Source: Actinomycetes bacterium (lineage in GTDB: Bacteria; Actinomycetota; Actinomycetes; Streptosporangiales; Streptosporangiaceae). Taken from it: DNA of 62,399 bases. Position 1 is the first letter of the stretch. Every line of letters starts with the position of its first letter. Below are positions 34,803 through 42,263 of this stretch, piece by piece. The notes under the pieces were generated by a model. The model did no database searches. It saw only the letters and a list, made by a program, of their open reading frames with translations, and had not been told where the DNA came from. The stretch is from contig JAJYTW010000003.1 of assembly GCA_021792855.1 (NCBI GenBank), positions 1 to 62,399 of the forward strand, in the 5' to 3' direction. The position numbers and the translations under genes are program-made.

Positions 34803-35483
34803 ATGGCGCCGGATGTGGCGGGAGTCCTGCGGCGCACCGTGCTGCTCGCCAGCGCGCCGGAGCACGAGCTTACGGCGCTGACCGCGGCCGCCAGGCTACG
34901 GACGTTCCGCCGGGGCCAGGTGGTCTGCACCGCCGCTGACCCAGGCGAGACCCTGATGGTCGTGATCACCGGCCGCCTCAAGATCGTGGTTCGATCCGCC
35001 GACGGCGGCGAGCTAACTCTCACCTCGGTCGGTCCGGCCGGCCTGGTCGGCGAGGTCAGCGTGGCCGACGGCGGGCCGCGGTCGGCCGATGTCGAGGCGA
35101 TCGAGGACAGCGACGTGCTGGTAGTTCCGCGGGCGGCAGTGCAGGATCTGTGCGGGCGGGTGCCGTCGGTGGCGCTCGCCCTGGCCGCGTCGGTCGCCGG
35201 GACCCTGCGCCGGCTCACCGAGGCGACCTCCGACCTGGTCTTCCTCGACCTGCCCCGGCGGGTTGCCAAGATGCTGCTCGCGCAGTCCACGGACGACTCC
35301 GGGCAGATCAAGCCGCCGGTGCCCCAGGGTGAGCTTGCCCGTCAGGTCGGCGGCACCCGGCAGAGCGTCAACGCGGCCCTGCGGGCGTTCGAGCGGCGCG
35401 GCTGGATTGAGATCGCCGGCCGTTCGCTGACCGTGCGCGATCCCGGCGAGCTTGCCCGGTTCGCCGGCGAATGGGCGACCTGA
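34803..35483 (+). CDS. Crp/Fnr-family transcriptional regulator
   Basis: 226 residues. An N-terminal cyclic-nucleotide-binding beta-roll (RRGQVVCTAADPGETLMVVITGRLKIVV; VGEVSVADGGPRSADVEA in the phosphate-binding position) and a C-terminal winged helix (PVPQGELARQVGGTRQSVNAALRAF). The phosphate-binding cassette GEVSVADGGPRSA is close to the cAMP-binding pattern of CRP (GELAL-RSA), so cAMP is a plausible ligand. A class III cyclase gene follows, and an MFS protein with a similar domain lies further on. Confidence 0.88.
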   Translation: MAPDVAGVLRRTVLLASAPEHELTALTAAARLRTFRRGQVVCTAADPGETLMVVITGRLKIVVRSADGGELTLTSVGPAGLVGEVSVADGGPRSADVEAIEDSDVLVVPRAAVQDLCGRVPSVALALAASVAGTLRRLTEATSDLVFLDLPRRVAKMLLAQSTDDSGQIKPPVPQGELARQVGGTRQSVNAALRAFERRGWIEIAGRSLTVRDPGELARFAGEWAT

Positions 35484-35673
35484 GGGCCGGGTATCCGGAA
35501 CGGATATCGGATCGGCCATCCCGGGATGGAATTGTGGTTACCCGGCTTTGCTGACATCTTTAACAAGAGCTCGACAGTTCCGACGCTCACTTCCATGGCG
35601 AATTCCCGGCGTCTGTGATAATCGCTCAGTTGACGCCCGGTAGCCACGCCGCACGCCAGGCGAGGGGGAAGGC

Positions 35674-38600
35674 ATGAATCGCTGCCGGTCCTGCGGAGCG
35701 CCGCTGGAGCACGACGATCGGTTCTGCGGAGACTGCGGCGCGCCCGCCGGCGGATGCCCTGGGTGCGGCGCGGCCGTGCTGCCGGGCAAGCGGTTCTGCC
35801 GGTCCTGCGGCATGCTGCTGGCCGGGCCGGACCCGGCCGGATCGGTCGGCGGCCCCGGCGCCGAGAGCGGACGGCTGGCCATCGCCGACCCGTCCGGCAC
35901 CGATGGTCAGGTAGCCAGGGTCGCGACGGGCCGGGGCACCCTTCCGGAGATGGAGCGGCGGGTGTGCTCAGTGCTCTTCTGCGACCTGGTCGGCTTCACC
36001 CCGCTGTCGGAGTCCATGGACCCGGAGAGCGTGCGGGAACTGCTATCGGGCTATTTCGACGTGGCACGGACCATCATCGGCCGATACGGCGGCGTGGTGG
36101 AGAAGTTCATCGGCGACGCGGTGATGGCCGTCTGGGGTGCACCGCGAGCCTCGGAGTCGGACGCCGAACGGGCCGTTCGGGCCGGCCTAGACCTGGTGCG
36201 GGCCGTGGCCGACCTGGGCGCGGACACGCAGATCCCGGGGCTGACTGCCAGGGCCGGAGTGGTGACCGGCGAGGTCGCGGTCGCGCTCGGGGCGACGGGC
36301 GAGGGCATGGTCGCCGGGGACGCGGTCAATACCGCAGCACGGGTCCAGTCGGCCGCCACGCCGGGATCGGTGTGGACGGACGAAACCACCAGGCGGATGG
36401 CCGAGGCGGCAGTGGCGTTCGCCGAGGCAGGCGCCCACGCGCTGAAGGGCAAGTCCGAGCCGATCCGGCTGTGGGAGGCGACCCGGGTGCTGTCGGCGGT
36501 CGGCGGCGTGCAGCGGGTGGACGGCCTGGAGGCCCCCCTGGTCGGCCGGGACGCCGAACTGCGGACGATCCGCGAGATGTTTCACGCCGCCGCGGACCGG
36601 CGGGCGGCGCGCATGGTTCTCGTCTGCGGCCCGGCCGGGGCAGGGAAATCCCGGCTCGCCTGGGAATTCGAGAAGTACACCGACGGCCTCGCGAGCACGT
36701 TGTGGTGGCACCGCGGCCAGTGCGCGGCCTATGGCGAGGGCGCTCCGTTCCGCGCGCTTGCCCAGATCATCCGGCAGCGACTCGGCATCGCCGAGGACGC
36801 GCCGACGGCCGAAGCGGCGCGCAGGCTCGCCGAGGGCCTGGAGCGGTTCGTGCCCGAAGCCGCCGAGCGCGAGTACACCGGGTCCAGGCTCGGTCGCCTG
36901 CTCGGCCTGGCGCTGCCCGGCGATACCGGCACGCAGCTTCCCCGCGAGGAACTATTCGCCGGGTGGCGGCTGTTCCTGGAGCGGCTCGCCGCTACCAGCC
37001 CCGTGGTGCTACTGATCGAGGACGTCGAGAACGCCGATCCCGGCCTGCTGGACTTCCTCGACTACCTGACCGACTGGAGCCGGGGCGCGGCGATCTACAT
37101 CCTGCTGCTCGCGCGCCCCGAACTGCTGCTCGGCCGCCCGGGTTTCGGCACCGGCCGGAACCGGGTCACGCTGACCCTCGACCCACTGGACCCGGCGTCG
37201 ATGAACACCCTGATCGACGCCCTCGTGCCCGGCATGCCGCCCGGCGCCCGCGCCGCCGTCACCGCGCAGGCACAGGGCTTGCCGCTGTTCGCGGTCGAGA
37301 CGATCCGCTCGCTGATCGACCACGACATCGTGACCGGCACCGACACCGGCTACCGGCTCACCGGCCAGATCCACGACCTGGCCGTGCCGCAGACCCTGCA
37401 CGCCCTGCTGGCGGCGCGACTGGACGCGCTGCCACCCGGCGTTCGCCGGCTGGCCAGCGACGCCGCGGTGCTGGGCACCAGCTTCCACCCGGCCACCCTG
37501 GCCGGTCTCGCCGGCACCGATGGCGACGCGATCGAGGCGGGACTCGCCGAACTCACCCGCCGCGAGGTGCTCACCCGGAACATCGACCCGCTCTCCCCGG
37601 ACCGCGGCAGCTACCAGTTCACCCACCACCTGCTTCGCCAGGTGGCCTACGACACCCTGTCGCGCCGGGACCGCAAGGCCCGGCATCTGGCCGCCGCCAG
37701 CAAGTTGGGCGCGGATGCCGCCGGGGCCGGCGACGGCGCCGCTGAGCTCATCGCCAGGCACTACATTGACGCGCTCAACGCGGTGCCCGGCGACCCGGAC
37801 GCATCGGCGATCCGGACCAAGGCCATCACCGCGCTGGTCCGGGCGGCCGAGCACGCCGAGCAGGCTGGCGCGCCCGGATCGGCGGCGGCCAGTTACGCCA
37901 GCGCCGCGCGGCTCACCGCCGAGCGTGACTCCGACGGTCCCGCCAGCCCCGGAGGCGAACCGGATGGGAGCGGCGCCGGGACGCCGAGCGCTGGCCGGCT
38001 CTGGGAACTGGCCGCCGCGTCGGAGACCATCAACGGCGCCCGCCAGGACGCGCTCGACTACGCGGCCCTGGCCAGGGAGTTCTACCAGCGGCGCGGCGAC
38101 ACCCGGGGGGCGGCGCGGGCGCAGGTCGCGACCGGCCGAGTGCTGCGGCTCCAGGGCAGGCTGAGCGAGGCACGCGAGCACCTGGCCGCCGCACTCGACG
38201 CGCTGCGCACCGATCCCGACATCGATACCGTGCGCACCCTGTATCAGCTTGGCGCGGCGGAGGTTGCCGTCGCCGCCCCGGACGCCGATGCCCGCACCAC
38301 CGAGGCACTGATCCTCGGCCAGGCGCTCGCGGTCGACGAGTCCAACCTGGCCAGCGTCCTCACCCTGCGCGGCGGGTACCTCGCCGCCGCCGGGCGGTAC
38401 GCGGAGGCGGCTGCGCACCTGCGGGAAGCCACCAGGCTAGGTGGCCATAGCGCCCGCGGAAACGCCCAGCTCAACCTGGCCGACGTGCTCGGGCAGACCG
38501 ATCCGGCCGCGGCCGTCGAGGCGGCCCGTGCGGCCGCTGGCCATTTGCGCCAGGTCGGGAACCGGCCGGTGCTCGCGTTCGCGCTGGCCAACCTCATCCA

Positions 38601-39321
38601 GTCGCTGCTCATGCTGGGCGAATGGGACACCGCGGATGCCGAGCTTGCCAGGGCCGCCGACGAGGACAACCTGGCCGACAACGAATTGCTCACCTGCTGC
38701 CGGGCCTGGATCGCGGCGCTGCGCGGCGACTGCGGCAGCGCCGATGCCATGCTCGCGGAACTTGCCGACATGCCGGCTTCGGAAGATCCGCAGGACATGG
38801 CGTTCATCGCGGTCATCCGCGGCTTCAGCGCGGCAGCCAGGCTCCGGCCGGGTGACGCCCTCGCGCACGCCAGGGCCGCGCTCGATCACGCCACGGCGCT
38901 CGGCATCGGGGTCGACTACCTGCGCTGGGCGTGGCCGCTAGCCGCCCGAGCGGCGCACGACCTGGCCGACCGCGAGGCGATTACCGACCTGCTCGCGATG
39001 CTCGACACCCGCCAGCCTGGTTACCTTCCGCCGATGCTGCGGGCCGAACGCGAACTGGCCAGGGCCCGGATCGCCGGCCCAGCGGGCGGGGCCGCCGCCG
39101 GTGCGCTGCGCGCCGCCGTCGCGGCCATGCGCGCGCAGTCGACTCCGTACCACCTGGCGCACGCGCTGCTCGACCAGGCCGGTGACCTGCTGGCCGCGGG
39201 CGACGAGCAGGCAGGCGCGCAGGCTGTGGACGAGGCTCGCAAGATCGCCGACCGGCTCGGCTGCGAGCCGCTGCTATCGCGCGCCGCCGCGCTGAGCGCC
39301 GTGGTCGTGCCAGGCGCCTGA
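35674..39321 (+). CDS. Class III adenylate cyclase with zinc ribbons, AAA ATPase and TPR-like repeats
   Basis: 1215 residues. Order: two zinc ribbons (CRSCG...CGDCG; CPGCG...CRSCG, residues 1-50), a cyclase homology domain (about 85-265), an ATPase of the AfsR/MalT type (P-loop CGPAGAGKSRLAWEF near residue 318), then a long helical TPR-like region to the end. In the cyclase, both metal Asp residues (LFCDLVGFT, FIGDAVMAVWG), the adenine-selecting Lys (VEKFIGD) and the transition-state Arg (VNTAARVQ) are present, so it should make cAMP. Likely cytoplasmic, signal unknown; the ATPase-TPR part may control the cyclase. A double hairpin terminates it. Confidence 0.93.
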   Translation: MNRCRSCGAPLEHDDRFCGDCGAPAGGCPGCGAAVLPGKRFCRSCGMLLAGPDPAGSVGGPGAESGRLAIADPSGTDGQVARVATGRGTLPEMERRVCSVLFCDLVGFTPLSESMDPESVRELLSGYFDVARTIIGRYGGVVEKFIGDAVMAVWGAPRASESDAERAVRAGLDLVRAVADLGADTQIPGLTARAGVVTGEVAVALGATGEGMVAGDAVNTAARVQSAATPGSVWTDETTRRMAEAAVAFAEAGAHALKGKSEPIRLWEATRVLSAVGGVQRVDGLEAPLVGRDAELRTIREMFHAAADRRAARMVLVCGPAGAGKSRLAWEFEKYTDGLASTLWWHRGQCAAYGEGAPFRALAQIIRQRLGIAEDAPTAEAARRLAEGLERFVPEAAEREYTGSRLGRLLGLALPGDTGTQLPREELFAGWRLFLERLAATSPVVLLIEDVENADPGLLDFLDYLTDWSRGAAIYILLLARPELLLGRPGFGTGRNRVTLTLDPLDPASMNTLIDALVPGMPPGARAAVTAQAQGLPLFAVETIRSLIDHDIVTGTDTGYRLTGQIHDLAVPQTLHALLAARLDALPPGVRRLASDAAVLGTSFHPATLAGLAGTDGDAIEAGLAELTRREVLTRNIDPLSPDRGSYQFTHHLLRQVAYDTLSRRDRKARHLAAASKLGADAAGAGDGAAELIARHYIDALNAVPGDPDASAIRTKAITALVRAAEHAEQAGAPGSAAASYASAARLTAERDSDGPASPGGEPDGSGAGTPSAGRLWELAAASETINGARQDALDYAALAREFYQRRGDTRGAARAQVATGRVLRLQGRLSEAREHLAAALDALRTDPDIDTVRTLYQLGAAEVAVAAPDADARTTEALILGQALAVDESNLASVLTLRGGYLAAAGRYAEAAAHLREATRLGGHSARGNAQLNLADVLGQTDPAAAVEAARAAAGHLRQVGNRPVLAFALANLIQSLLMLGEWDTADAELARAADEDNLADNELLTCCRAWIAALRGDCGSADAMLAELADMPASEDPQDMAFIAVIRGFSAAARLRPGDALAHARAALDHATALGIGVDYLRWAWPLAARAAHDLADREAITDLLAMLDTRQPGYLPPMLRAERELARARIAGPAGGAAAGALRAAVAAMRAQSTPYHLAHALLDQAGDLLAAGDEQAGAQAVDEARKIADRLGCEPLLSRAAALSAVVVPGA

Positions 39322-39338
39322 TCCGCCGGAGGCGGATC
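39320..39338 (+). terminator. Hairpin at the cyclase stop codon
   Basis: GATCCGCC-GGA-GGCGGATC overlaps the TGA. A second interrupted stem (GGATCC.GGC...GCCGGATCC, 39335-39357) follows at once. Likely terminator despite the lack of a T-tract. Confidence 0.5.
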
Positions 39339-39497
39339 CCGGCCCGTGCCGGATCCCGGCAGGTGTCGGGAAGATGACACCGGAACTGTCGGGCAGGTGA
39401 CTGAGCGCCGCATCCCGCCGCGGGCAGACTGCGGACCAGGCTGAACCGGCGTGAACCGGGACAGCCCAGCCGTCAGCCCTTGTGCTCAGGAGTTCCG

Positions 39498-41408
39498 ATG
39501 CGGGATCCGATCAGCCGCCGTGCCAGTTACCGTTCCGCACTGCGCTCGCGGGACCTACGGGTGCTGCTCGGCAGCGGGCTGATCTCGGCCAGCGGGTCGT
39601 GGGCCTACAACGTCGCGCTGATGGTGCTGCTCTACGAGCGCACCCACTCCGCCGCCTGGGTCGCGGCGGGCGCGGCCGGCCGGTTCCTGCCCGCGCTGGT
39701 GTTCAGCGCCTACGGCGGGGTGATCGCCGAGCGATTCGAGCGGGTCAGGCTGATGGTCTGGCTGAACCTCGCCGCGCTGGCGCTGCAAGCCGGTCTCGCG
39801 GCCGCGGCCTGGCAGCGGGCGCCCGCACTGGTCGACGTGGCGCTCGCGGCGGCGACCTCGGTGCTGATGACCGGATACGAGCCGGCCGTCGCCGCACTGG
39901 TGCCACAAGTGGTTGGCGAGGACGACCTAGCCGCGGCCAACGCGCTGAACGCCGTCATCCAGAACCTCGTCGTCGTGGTCGGCCCGGCGATCGGCGCCGT
40001 GCTGCTGCTGGCCGGCGGCCCGACGCTGGCGATTCTCGTCAACGCGCTCACCTTCGGCGTCGCCGCCGCGTGGCTGCCGCGGATGTCGGCCCGGAGCGCA
40101 CCCAGCGATGTCACCGGCGGGGGAAAGGTCGGCCCGATCCGGCAGGTCACCGACGGATTCCGCGCACTGGCCACCTCGTCGGCCGCGATGACCTTCGTCG
40201 GCTTCAGCGTCCTCGCGTCCTTCCTGTACGGAACGGACACCGTACTGTTCATCCCGATCTCCCGGATCCAGTTGCACACCGGGGCCTCGGGCTACGGCTA
40301 CCTGCTTGCCGGGCTTGGGGTGGGCGGAGTCGCGGGGGCGGCGTTCGTGAACAAGCTAGCGGCGCGGCGCAGGCTGGCGGCGGCGATTTTCGGGGGCATC
40401 GCCGCCTACTGCCTGCCAACCGCGCTGCTGATCGTGGTGCACCAGCCGGCGGCCGGCTTCGCGCTCCAGGTCGTGCGCGGGGCCGGCACCCTGGTGGTGG
40501 ACACGCTGGCGATCACCGCGCTCCAGCGCTCGGTGCCACGGGACATGGTCGCCCGGGTGTACGGGGTCTTCCTGACCCTGGTGCTCGCGGCGATCTCGCT
40601 TGGCGCCCTGCTCACCCCGGTCCTGCTCCGGATTGGCCTGCACCAGACCATGCTGATCTACGGAGCGGTCGTCCCGGCACTGTGCCTGCTGACGCTGCCG
40701 TGGCTGCTGGCCGCCGACCGGCGGGCCGCGGCCGTGGCCGCCGCGGTAGCCCCGCGGGTGGCGATCCTGGAGCGGCTCGGCCTGTTCCTGAACGCGTCCC
40801 GGTCCAGCCTGGAGAGCCTGGCGGCGTCTGCGGCGGAGGTGTCCGTCCCGGCCGGGGCCGTGATCATGGCCGAGGGCGAGGAAGCCGACGCCTTCTTCAT
40901 CCTGACCGACGGGGAGCTTGAGGTCACCGCGATCGGCGAGCGCCAATCCGCGCCGGTCCGACTCGGCACGCTCGCACCGGTCAGCTACGCCGGGGAGATC
41001 GGCCTGCTCGGGCAGATGCCGAGAACGGCCACCGTGACCGCCCGAACATCGGCCGAATTGCTGCGGATCGACGGCGCCACCTTCCTCAGCGCGCTGACCA
41101 GCCTGACCGCGTCGCCGATGCTGCTGACCCAGGCGCAGAGCCGACTGGCCACCACCCACCCGGCCCGCGCGCTCGCCGCACCGCTCGATCAGGACGAGGT
41201 GATCGACGACGTCGTCCCGGTGCCGGTGCCGCGGGTGTTACCGGCCGGCAGCCGGACGGTGAGTCCGTCGGACGCGGCCCGGACCGGCACCGCCCGACCG
41301 GCGAAGCCGGCCACCAGTTCGTCGATCGCGTCGTCGGTCCGGCCGGGAGCGTGGTGGAAGAGCATCACCTGCCGCGCGCCGGCCGCCTCGGCGAGGCTGA
41401 CCGCGTAG
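39498..41408 (+). CDS. MFS transporter fused to a cyclic-nucleotide-binding domain, with read-through tail
   Basis: 636 residues from ATG at 39498 (CAGGAG ahead). Residues 1-415 are a 12-helix MFS of the MFS_3/enterobactin-exporter-like type. Residues about 430-545 are a cNMP-binding domain (VPAGAVIMAEGEEADAFFILTDGELEV; YAGEIGLLGQMPRTATV). The last 70 or so residues are Pro/Ser/Arg-rich and are simply the complement of the MBL gene on the other strand, a 220-base convergent overlap. The ancestral stop was probably lost. The cNMP domain may gate export by cAMP. Confidence 0.88.
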   Translation: MRDPISRRASYRSALRSRDLRVLLGSGLISASGSWAYNVALMVLLYERTHSAAWVAAGAAGRFLPALVFSAYGGVIAERFERVRLMVWLNLAALALQAGLAAAAWQRAPALVDVALAAATSVLMTGYEPAVAALVPQVVGEDDLAAANALNAVIQNLVVVVGPAIGAVLLLAGGPTLAILVNALTFGVAAAWLPRMSARSAPSDVTGGGKVGPIRQVTDGFRALATSSAAMTFVGFSVLASFLYGTDTVLFIPISRIQLHTGASGYGYLLAGLGVGGVAGAAFVNKLAARRRLAAAIFGGIAAYCLPTALLIVVHQPAAGFALQVVRGAGTLVVDTLAITALQRSVPRDMVARVYGVFLTLVLAAISLGALLTPVLLRIGLHQTMLIYGAVVPALCLLTLPWLLAADRRAAAVAAAVAPRVAILERLGLFLNASRSSLESLAASAAEVSVPAGAVIMAEGEEADAFFILTDGELEVTAIGERQSAPVRLGTLAPVSYAGEIGLLGQMPRTATVTARTSAELLRIDGATFLSALTSLTASPMLLTQAQSRLATTHPARALAAPLDQDEVIDDVVPVPVPRVLPAGSRTVSPSDAARTGTARPAKPATSSSIASSVRPGAWWKSITCRAPAASARLTA

Positions 41409-42079
41409 TCCGGGCAGGAATGCCCGTAGTCAGCGAGGTCCGGCAGTTCGGCGGCCGTGTACTGGGCGTCGTGAATCAGCACGTCGACCCCGGCGGCGAG
41501 GGCCAGCGCCGCGGGATTGAGTTCGCCGACGCCTAGCGGGCCGGGCCCCACCGCGAGCGGATGATGATCGGACAGGTAGGCGACCGACCGCTCGCCGTGG
41601 GTGATCCGGAATCCGAAGGTGCGCCCGCCCTTGTGCGGGATCTCCGCCGCCAGTACCGAGAACCCCTCGATCGTATGCTCGCCCGGTTCGATCGACCCGA
41701 ACCGCCATCCGGCGCCAAGCTCACCGGGCCGGATCGGGAAGTGCGGCGGCGAGAAGGCCCTCGCCAGCACGGCCTCGGCGGGGTCGGCCTGGCCGGGTAT
41801 CAGCACCCGGACCCGATGCCCGGGCCGCGCACCGGCGGCGAAGAACGGCATGCCATGAGTGTGATCCCAGTGCAGATGACCCAGGAGCAGCGTGCCGCGG
41901 AACGGCACCGACCCGAGCGCCGCGTCCAGATTGACCAGTCCGGTGCCCGCGTCCAGGATCAGTTCGGGTGGCGCGCCGTCCCTGGCCAGACCGACGCACG
42001 AGGTGTGGCCGCCGTAGCGGACGAAGGATCGCCCGGGCGCCGGCGTCGACCCGCGGGTGCCGCAGAAGTAGATATCCAC
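41189..42079 (-). CDS. Metallo-beta-lactamase-fold hydrolase
   Basis: About 296 residues from GTG at 42079. It starts VDIYFCGTRGSTPAPG, typical of MBL proteins of the cyclic-phosphodiesterase/RNase Z-like group. Metal sites: GHLHWDHTHG (HxHxDH), SDHHPL, IHDAQY and LFHHAPGRTDD. It probably hydrolyses a phosphodiester or small ester. An in-frame ATG at 42178 would add 33 residues without homology. The C-terminal Thr/Ser-rich tail lies in the overlap with the MFS gene. Confidence 0.85.
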   Translation of the reverse strand: MDIYFCGTRGSTPAPGRSFVRYGGHTSCVGLARDGAPPELILDAGTGLVNLDAALGSVPFRGTLLLGHLHWDHTHGMPFFAAGARPGHRVRVLIPGQADPAEAVLARAFSPPHFPIRPGELGAGWRFGSIEPGEHTIEGFSVLAAEIPHKGGRTFGFRITHGERSVAYLSDHHPLAVGPGPLGVGELNPAALALAAGVDVLIHDAQYTAAELPDLADYGHSCPDYAVSLAEAAGARQVMLFHHAPGRTDDAIDELVAGFAGRAVPVRAASDGLTVRLPAGNTRGTGTGTTSSITSS

Positions 42080-42263
42080 CCCGGCCTCAGACCTGCCGTC
42101 CCTGACGCGCGCCGGGCCCGGCGCCCGCTCGTAACATTCGGGCACTGTATCGCAAACCAGCCCAGCCCCGGTGGTCATCGCCGGGGCGGATCACGGTGCC
42201 GTAAGCCCGGCAGTCCGTCGGCCCGCGGCCGTTCCGTCGGCGGCAGATAGCAGAATGGGCAGC

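Follow-up and report, generated by a model that had tools for sequence, protein, structure and literature searches.

Introduction

In bacteria, cAMP is known above all for its role in transcription. One described kind of class III cyclase joins its cyclase domain (CHD) to AAA and TPR parts, as in the M. tuberculosis Rv0386/Rv1358-type proteins, which also carry LuxR, and in bacterial sAC-like enzymes. Cyclic-nucleotide-binding (cNMP) domains also occur in MFS-cNMP-patatin proteins of the Rv3239c/Rv3728 type. As kinds of protein, both CHD-AAA-TPR cyclases and fusions of an MFS transporter to such a domain (MFS-CNBD) are already known. MFS-CNBD fusions have been recorded as a domain architecture (PMC10710835), and Rv1339, YhfI and C. 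glutamicum CpdA have been grouped as atypical class II phosphodiesterases (PMC9293780). In the open-access literature that we searched (most subscription journals lie outside it), we found no description of the recurrent four-gene cluster reported here or of the contrast between its cyclase-paired transporters and their LuxR-paired relatives; nor did we find there an experimental study of an MFS-CNBD protein, the one source being a review that mentions the fusion. Here we describe a locus, within a 62,399-nt stretch of DNA from a soil-type actinobacterium (hereafter the window), in which a Crp-type regulator, a cyclase, an MFS-cNMP transporter and a metallo-beta-lactamase-fold hydrolase lie together, and we ask how it compares with these systems.

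Results

Gene content and layout

The first-pass annotation of the window had described three adjacent genes on one strand, and all three are present on the + strand: a Crp/Fnr-type regulator of 226 amino acids (34803-35483), a cyclase of 1215 amino acids (35674-39321) and an MFS_3 transporter with a C-terminal cNMP-binding domain (39498-41408, in an open reading frame that runs from 39480). A fourth member, absent from that description, lies convergent with the MFS gene on the - strand (41189-42178) and encodes a metallo-beta-lactamase-fold (MBL) hydrolase (Pfam PF12706) with the motif GHLHWDH. The locus sits in a neighbourhood of metabolic genes. The last ~70 codons of the MFS frame (about 220 nt, 41189-41408) run antisense into the MBL gene; in the close homologues L043 and L045 the two genes overlap by about 9 nt only. 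The long overlap in the window would stem either from loss of the stop codon or from an error in the assembly.

The regulator and cyclase genes are separated by 190 bp and the cyclase and MFS genes by about 160-180 bp. Directly 3′ of the cyclase gene, at 39337-39371, there is an imperfect, hairpin-like 16-nt inverted repeat, possibly a terminator or attenuator between the cyclase and MFS genes; other inverted repeats between the genes of the module looked unremarkable. The CRP operator TGTGAN6TCACA matched 4 times in the window against 10 expected, i.e. not above chance, and none of these matches fell between the genes of the module.

Crp regulator

The regulator matches the Pfam models cNMP_binding (73 bits) and HTH_Crp_2 (54 bits), both above the curated cut-offs, and the solved structures closest to it are those of M. 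tuberculosis CRP. Its phosphate-binding cassette, which had been called cAMP-like, is indeed kept (GEVSVADGGPRSA), but the likeness ends at the adenine-contact positions of the C-helix. The residues that align with T127/S128 of E. coli CRP are Leu-Thr, where E. coli CRP has Thr-Ser and M. tuberculosis CRP has Thr-Asn; the Leu-Thr pair also occurs in the Crp proteins of the Dormibacterota loci and in those of L085 and L094. Because the C-helix is without the usual adenine contacts, the ligand of this protein may not be cAMP.

Cyclase

The annotation had given the cyclase zinc ribbons, an ATPase and TPR-like repeats, and the domain order found agrees with this: an N-terminal double zinc ribbon, a class III CHD (Guanylate_cyc, PF00211, 68 bits against a curated cut-off of 21.9), AAA_16 (75 bits) and a TPR region whose TPR_12 match is weak and below the cut-off. 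No LuxR or kinase domain was found in the Pfam scan, and the NCBIfam model TIGR03903 scored below its cut-off. The nearest solved relatives are bacterial class III cyclases. The segments FCDLVGF and EKFIGDAVM hold the two metal-binding Asp residues and the base-selecting Lys, and VNTAAR holds the transition-state Asn and Arg. The earlier claim that all catalytic residues and the adenine-selecting Lys are present therefore stands for the metal, Lys, Asn and Arg positions; it fails at the partner purine site, where the segment GMVAGDAVN has Met in place of the Asp or Thr of canonical adenylyl cyclases. Alignment with Pseudomonas CyaB, a solved relative of the cyclase domain, places the Met at the same site. 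MFS-paired homologues with a single CHD mostly have Met there as well, a few having Leu or another residue. CyaB has Lys at the base-selecting site, as here, and given this Lys the predicted product of the enzyme is most likely cAMP.

The genome measures 4.71 Mb at 93% completeness. By PF00211, the cyclase domain described here is its single one of class III, and of its five cNMP domains two directly flank the cyclase. The closest cyclase orthologue found within the family to which the window belongs (G015, 56%) lacks an adjacent MFS-cNMP gene. This orthologue adjoins the gene for a cNMP-domain protein (L141:6392-7432) whose cassette looks degenerate, with GG for GE, and whose N-terminal part matched no assigned domain. 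We also noted cyclases with two CHDs beside MFS-cNMP genes (L043, L045, L047, L064, L065, L069, L070, L075, L092 and L093). They have the metal Asp residues in domain 1 and, in most, the Asn and Arg in domain 2, and domain 2 often has Glu or Asp at the position of the base-selecting Lys, so that these double-CHD enzymes might not be adenylyl cyclases.

MFS transporter with a cNMP domain

The fusion proposed in the first reading is borne out by matches to MFS_3 (90 bits) and cNMP_binding (60 bits), above the Pfam cut-offs, in one open reading frame. This frame opens with TTG at 39480; because homology begins near residue 13-17, the start is likely the ATG at 39498. The cassette of the cNMP domain is AGEIGLLGQMPRTATV, and its Gly-Glu(-Ile) and Arg-Thr-Ala elements are kept in all homologues. 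The nearest solved relatives of the C-terminus are PKA and PKG regulatory domains. A structural model (pLDDT 86) has 12 transmembrane helices, a linker helix (residues 400-427) and a cNMP beta-barrel with a C-helix; its transport part resembles the drug exporters MdfA, SotB and NorA, and its cNMP part again PKA and PKG. Both termini of MFS proteins are normally cytosolic, so that the cNMP domain would face the pool made by the cyclase. Among plasmid records, the protein had no match at E 1e-30.

MBL-fold hydrolase

The MBL family occurs in 25 of the 47 genomes searched, as a single copy in most carriers, and adjoins the MFS-cNMP gene in 14 of 24 carrier genomes, where 0.09 would be expected. 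In two further carriers, G087:C66 and G089:C7, a comparison of coordinates suggests that it has a cyclase domain close by, on another contig. The best solved match of its structural model (pLDDT 79) is YhfI (6KNS; TM 0.82 by target length); the model also resembles Apyc1, among many others. The sequence profile is nearer RNase Z than YhfI, and the motif GHLHWDH has Gly where the published [T/S]HxHxDH has Thr or Ser, as do many homologues (S/THLHWDH). On the NCBIfam phosphodiesterase model NF041851 the protein reached 29.5 bits, far below the 400-bit cut-off, and we reject it as a true member of the Rv1339/YhfI type. From its context and fold we propose the MBL protein as a candidate cyclic-nucleotide phosphodiesterase.

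Recurrence of the cluster

A scan of genome contigs with the MFS-cNMP alignment gave 80 named loci, and neighbouring domains were counted within ±10 kb with our own profiles over all open reading frames. We compared 48 loci having an intact MFS-cNMP gene (among them L048-L050, which are near-identical to one another and all lack a cyclase, as well as L035 and L090, which are one locus from two sources) with 25 loci of related MFS genes lacking the cNMP domain. A cyclase lay nearby at 23 of the 48 MFS-cNMP loci and at none of the 25 controls (Fisher 8e-6), and the MBL gene at 16 of 48 and none of 25 (Fisher 6e-4). Crp was found at 8 of 48 loci and at 1 of 25 controls. The pattern reversed for AAA proteins without a cyclase domain, which stood near 10 of the 25 control genes and near only 2 of the 48. 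About half of the MFS-cNMP loci have no cyclase nearby, though many of the contigs are short.

When the expectation was drawn from each genome's own number of cyclases, 24 of 46 loci had a nearby cyclase against 1.3 expected, a ratio somewhat inflated by the greater sensitivity of the neighbour profiles over the PF00211 counts behind the expectation; none of 200,000 simulation runs exceeded 8. For Crp, 8 were observed against 1.4 expected (P 5e-5). A second sample, drawn from 297 further genomes of the class and reduced to 25 loci by removing those near-identical to loci of the first, had 9 loci with a cyclase, 7 with Crp and 5 with the MBL gene; 9 of the 12 closer orthologues had a partner. 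In these counts the contigs from metagenome-assembled genomes are short and close strains are still partly double counted. The clustering of cyclase, Crp and MBL genes with MFS-cNMP genes is not due to chance.

Synteny of the three genes first described, which had been put forward as a check, was found elsewhere, contrary to the refuting case that they never co-occur. Crp, cyclase and MFS-cNMP genes stand together at no fewer than eight further loci (L059, L060, L076, L079, L186, L187, L190 and L196), in Actinomycetota and Dormibacterota, with differing gene order and orientation and well in excess of what genome-wide counts predict. In G053 the cyclase and MFS-cNMP genes lie on one strand and overlap by one base. 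Two further arrangements were seen. Stand-alone small cNMP-domain proteins recur near MFS-cNMP genes (L055, L088, L072, L073, L094, L192 and L207), and L032 (G048:C166, 69-7903) groups three genes for cNMP-bearing membrane proteins with an MBL gene, in the order DHA2 MFS-cNMP-patatin, MFS_3-cNMP, MBL and MFS_3-cNMP; the product of the first resembles M. tuberculosis Rv3239c.

Relationships of the transporters

In a phylogenetic tree, most cNMP-bearing MFS proteins fell into one clade of 48 rows (support 100/99), while a few branched deeply outside this clade; the LuxR-paired MFS proteins formed a clade of their own (100/100). Members of the sister clade are MFS_3 proteins without a cNMP domain beside AAA-TPR regulators (L095-L100, L102, L106 and L107); all four of the AAA neighbours scanned with Pfam are AAA_16-TPR-LuxR proteins. 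The sister clades are thus paired with a similar sensor and differ in its output. Within the cNMP clade the cyclase partner switches between a single CHD with zinc ribbons and a double CHD, and stands in several orientations. This change of partner suggests that the element kept is a source of cyclic nucleotide and not a particular protein, and the two cyclase types and several orientations fit a link through a diffusible messenger, not one inherited operon.

No close MFS-cNMP orthologue was found in the same-genus or same-family genomes examined, so that the module may have been acquired recently or may lie on a misassigned contig. The adjacent ilvD has an 87% match (246 amino acids, a fragment) in a same-genus genome, higher than in any other. 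The assignment of the contig to its host is likely, not certain.

Discussion

Based on the gene content and domains, the conserved residues of the cyclase and cNMP domains, the non-random clustering and the different partners of the LuxR-paired clade, we propose that this locus encodes a local cyclic-nucleotide circuit that makes a messenger, senses it twice (in Crp and in the transporter) and probably degrades it. We give this reading a probability of roughly 0.68; the activities of the cyclase and the phosphodiesterase, the ligand, the gating of the transporter, its cargo and the input to the circuit are inferred. The AAA/TPR part of a cytosolic, ATP-dependent cyclase protein would bind the input and switch on the cyclase domain, which would make a cyclic nucleotide, most likely cAMP. 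The messenger would then act along two branches, a slow one through Crp to transcription, and a fast one in which binding to the cNMP domain would allosterically gate transport by a 12-helix MFS exporter resembling proton antiporters. The MBL enzyme would probably hydrolyse the messenger and so reset the circuit. More tentatively, at odds somewhat short of even, we suggest a widespread actinobacterial and Dormibacterota system in which cAMP from an AAA-TPR sensor cyclase directly gates a secondary transporter, the output of the sensor being exchanged relative to the AAA-TPR-LuxR and MFS pairs, with Crp and a dedicated MBL phosphodiesterase completing the circuit.

The same circuit could run on cGMP or another cyclic nucleotide, sensed by Crp and the MFS protein. 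The Met at the second purine site of the cyclase, the Leu-Thr of the Crp C-helix in place of Thr-Ser/Asn, the presence of PKG domains among the top structural matches of the MFS cNMP domain, and the frequent Glu or Asp at the Lys position in domain 2 of double-CHD cyclases beside MFS homologues all point in this direction. They are opposed by the Lys that the single-CHD cyclases carry at the primary base-selecting site and share with CyaB; we regard cAMP as the likely messenger and another nucleotide as an unlikely one, worth perhaps a fifth of our belief. It would be a further departure if the MFS cNMP domain served structure or assembly only, bound no ligand and reflected mere co-expression with the cyclase. 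The review that mentions MFS-CNBD fusions gives no characterised example (PMC10710835), which leaves room for such a role, but every MFS homologue retains the Gly-Glu / Arg-Thr-Ala cassette, and the domain is present in the cyclase-paired group and absent from the LuxR-paired clade. We consider a ligand-free domain improbable.

Cyclases and cNMP proteins are common in such genomes, some of which have more than ten cyclases; the genes in the window, spaced 190 bp and about 160-180 bp apart, could be mere neighbours, co-located by chance. Against this stand the 24 loci observed where 1.3 were expected, the 0 of 25 in the control MFS group, the agreement of the second sample and the one cyclase domain of this genome, and we reject a chance neighbourhood on the control group, the genome-wide expectation and the second sample; of all the alternatives it retains the least credibility. 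Scarcely more probable is Pycsar-type anti-phage signalling, which combines a cyclase with a cNMP-binding effector in the membrane. The PADLOC matches of the cyclase and cNMP parts to PycC and PycTIR that would favour it are weak and extend no further than the generic CHD and cNMP domains, and the structural likeness of the MBL-fold protein to Apyc1 is one among many. The effector here is a full 12-helix efflux-type MFS protein, not a TIR or short transmembrane effector, and the locus includes Crp and a candidate phosphodiesterase and sits among metabolic genes; Pycsar membership is not supported, in view of the weak generic-domain matches and the nature of the effector.

If the more tentative, cAMP-gated system is correct, the AAA-TPR cyclase and MFS-cNMP pair would be to transporters what cyclic-nucleotide-gated channels are to channels. 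Direct control of a secondary transporter by a second messenger, through a cNMP domain fused to it, would go beyond the literature searched, which records the domain fusion only. The compact cluster unites an enzyme for making the messenger, two receptors for it and a candidate for removing it, and its cultured hosts, such as Nocardioides mangrovi (L076), make it directly testable. The cyclase-paired, cNMP-bearing and the LuxR-paired, cNMP-lacking transporters also form a natural evolutionary experiment on the switching of a sensor's output between transcription and a second messenger.

Several described systems resemble parts of the locus. Proteins of the Rv3239c/Rv3728 type share the plan of an MFS core with a C-terminal cNMP domain, whereas here the core is of the MFS_3 type, lacks patatin and stands repeatedly beside cyclase, Crp and MBL genes. 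The known CHD-AAA-TPR cyclases have the same order of cyclase domain, AAA ATPase and TPR; the present enzyme differs in its N-terminal double zinc ribbon, in having no LuxR or kinase domain found, and in its recurrent MFS-cNMP neighbour. In the pairs of a LuxR-type AAA-TPR (LAL) regulator and an MFS_3 protein, too, the MFS core is related and its neighbour has a similar AAA-TPR sensor part, but the output is a DNA-binding domain and the MFS protein has no cNMP domain. The MBL protein shares PF12706, HxHxDH and its best structural match, YhfI, with the atypical class II phosphodiesterases (Rv1339, YhfI, CpdA; PMC9293780), yet falls far below the NCBIfam equivalog cut-off and is nearer RNase Z in sequence. 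Finally, cyclic-nucleotide-gated channels such as MloK1 and SthK offer a comparison of working principle, since their membrane-embedded transport part also ends in a cNMP sensor at the C-terminus; their transport fold is unrelated, and in the present locus the sensor is joined not to a channel but to an MFS secondary transporter.
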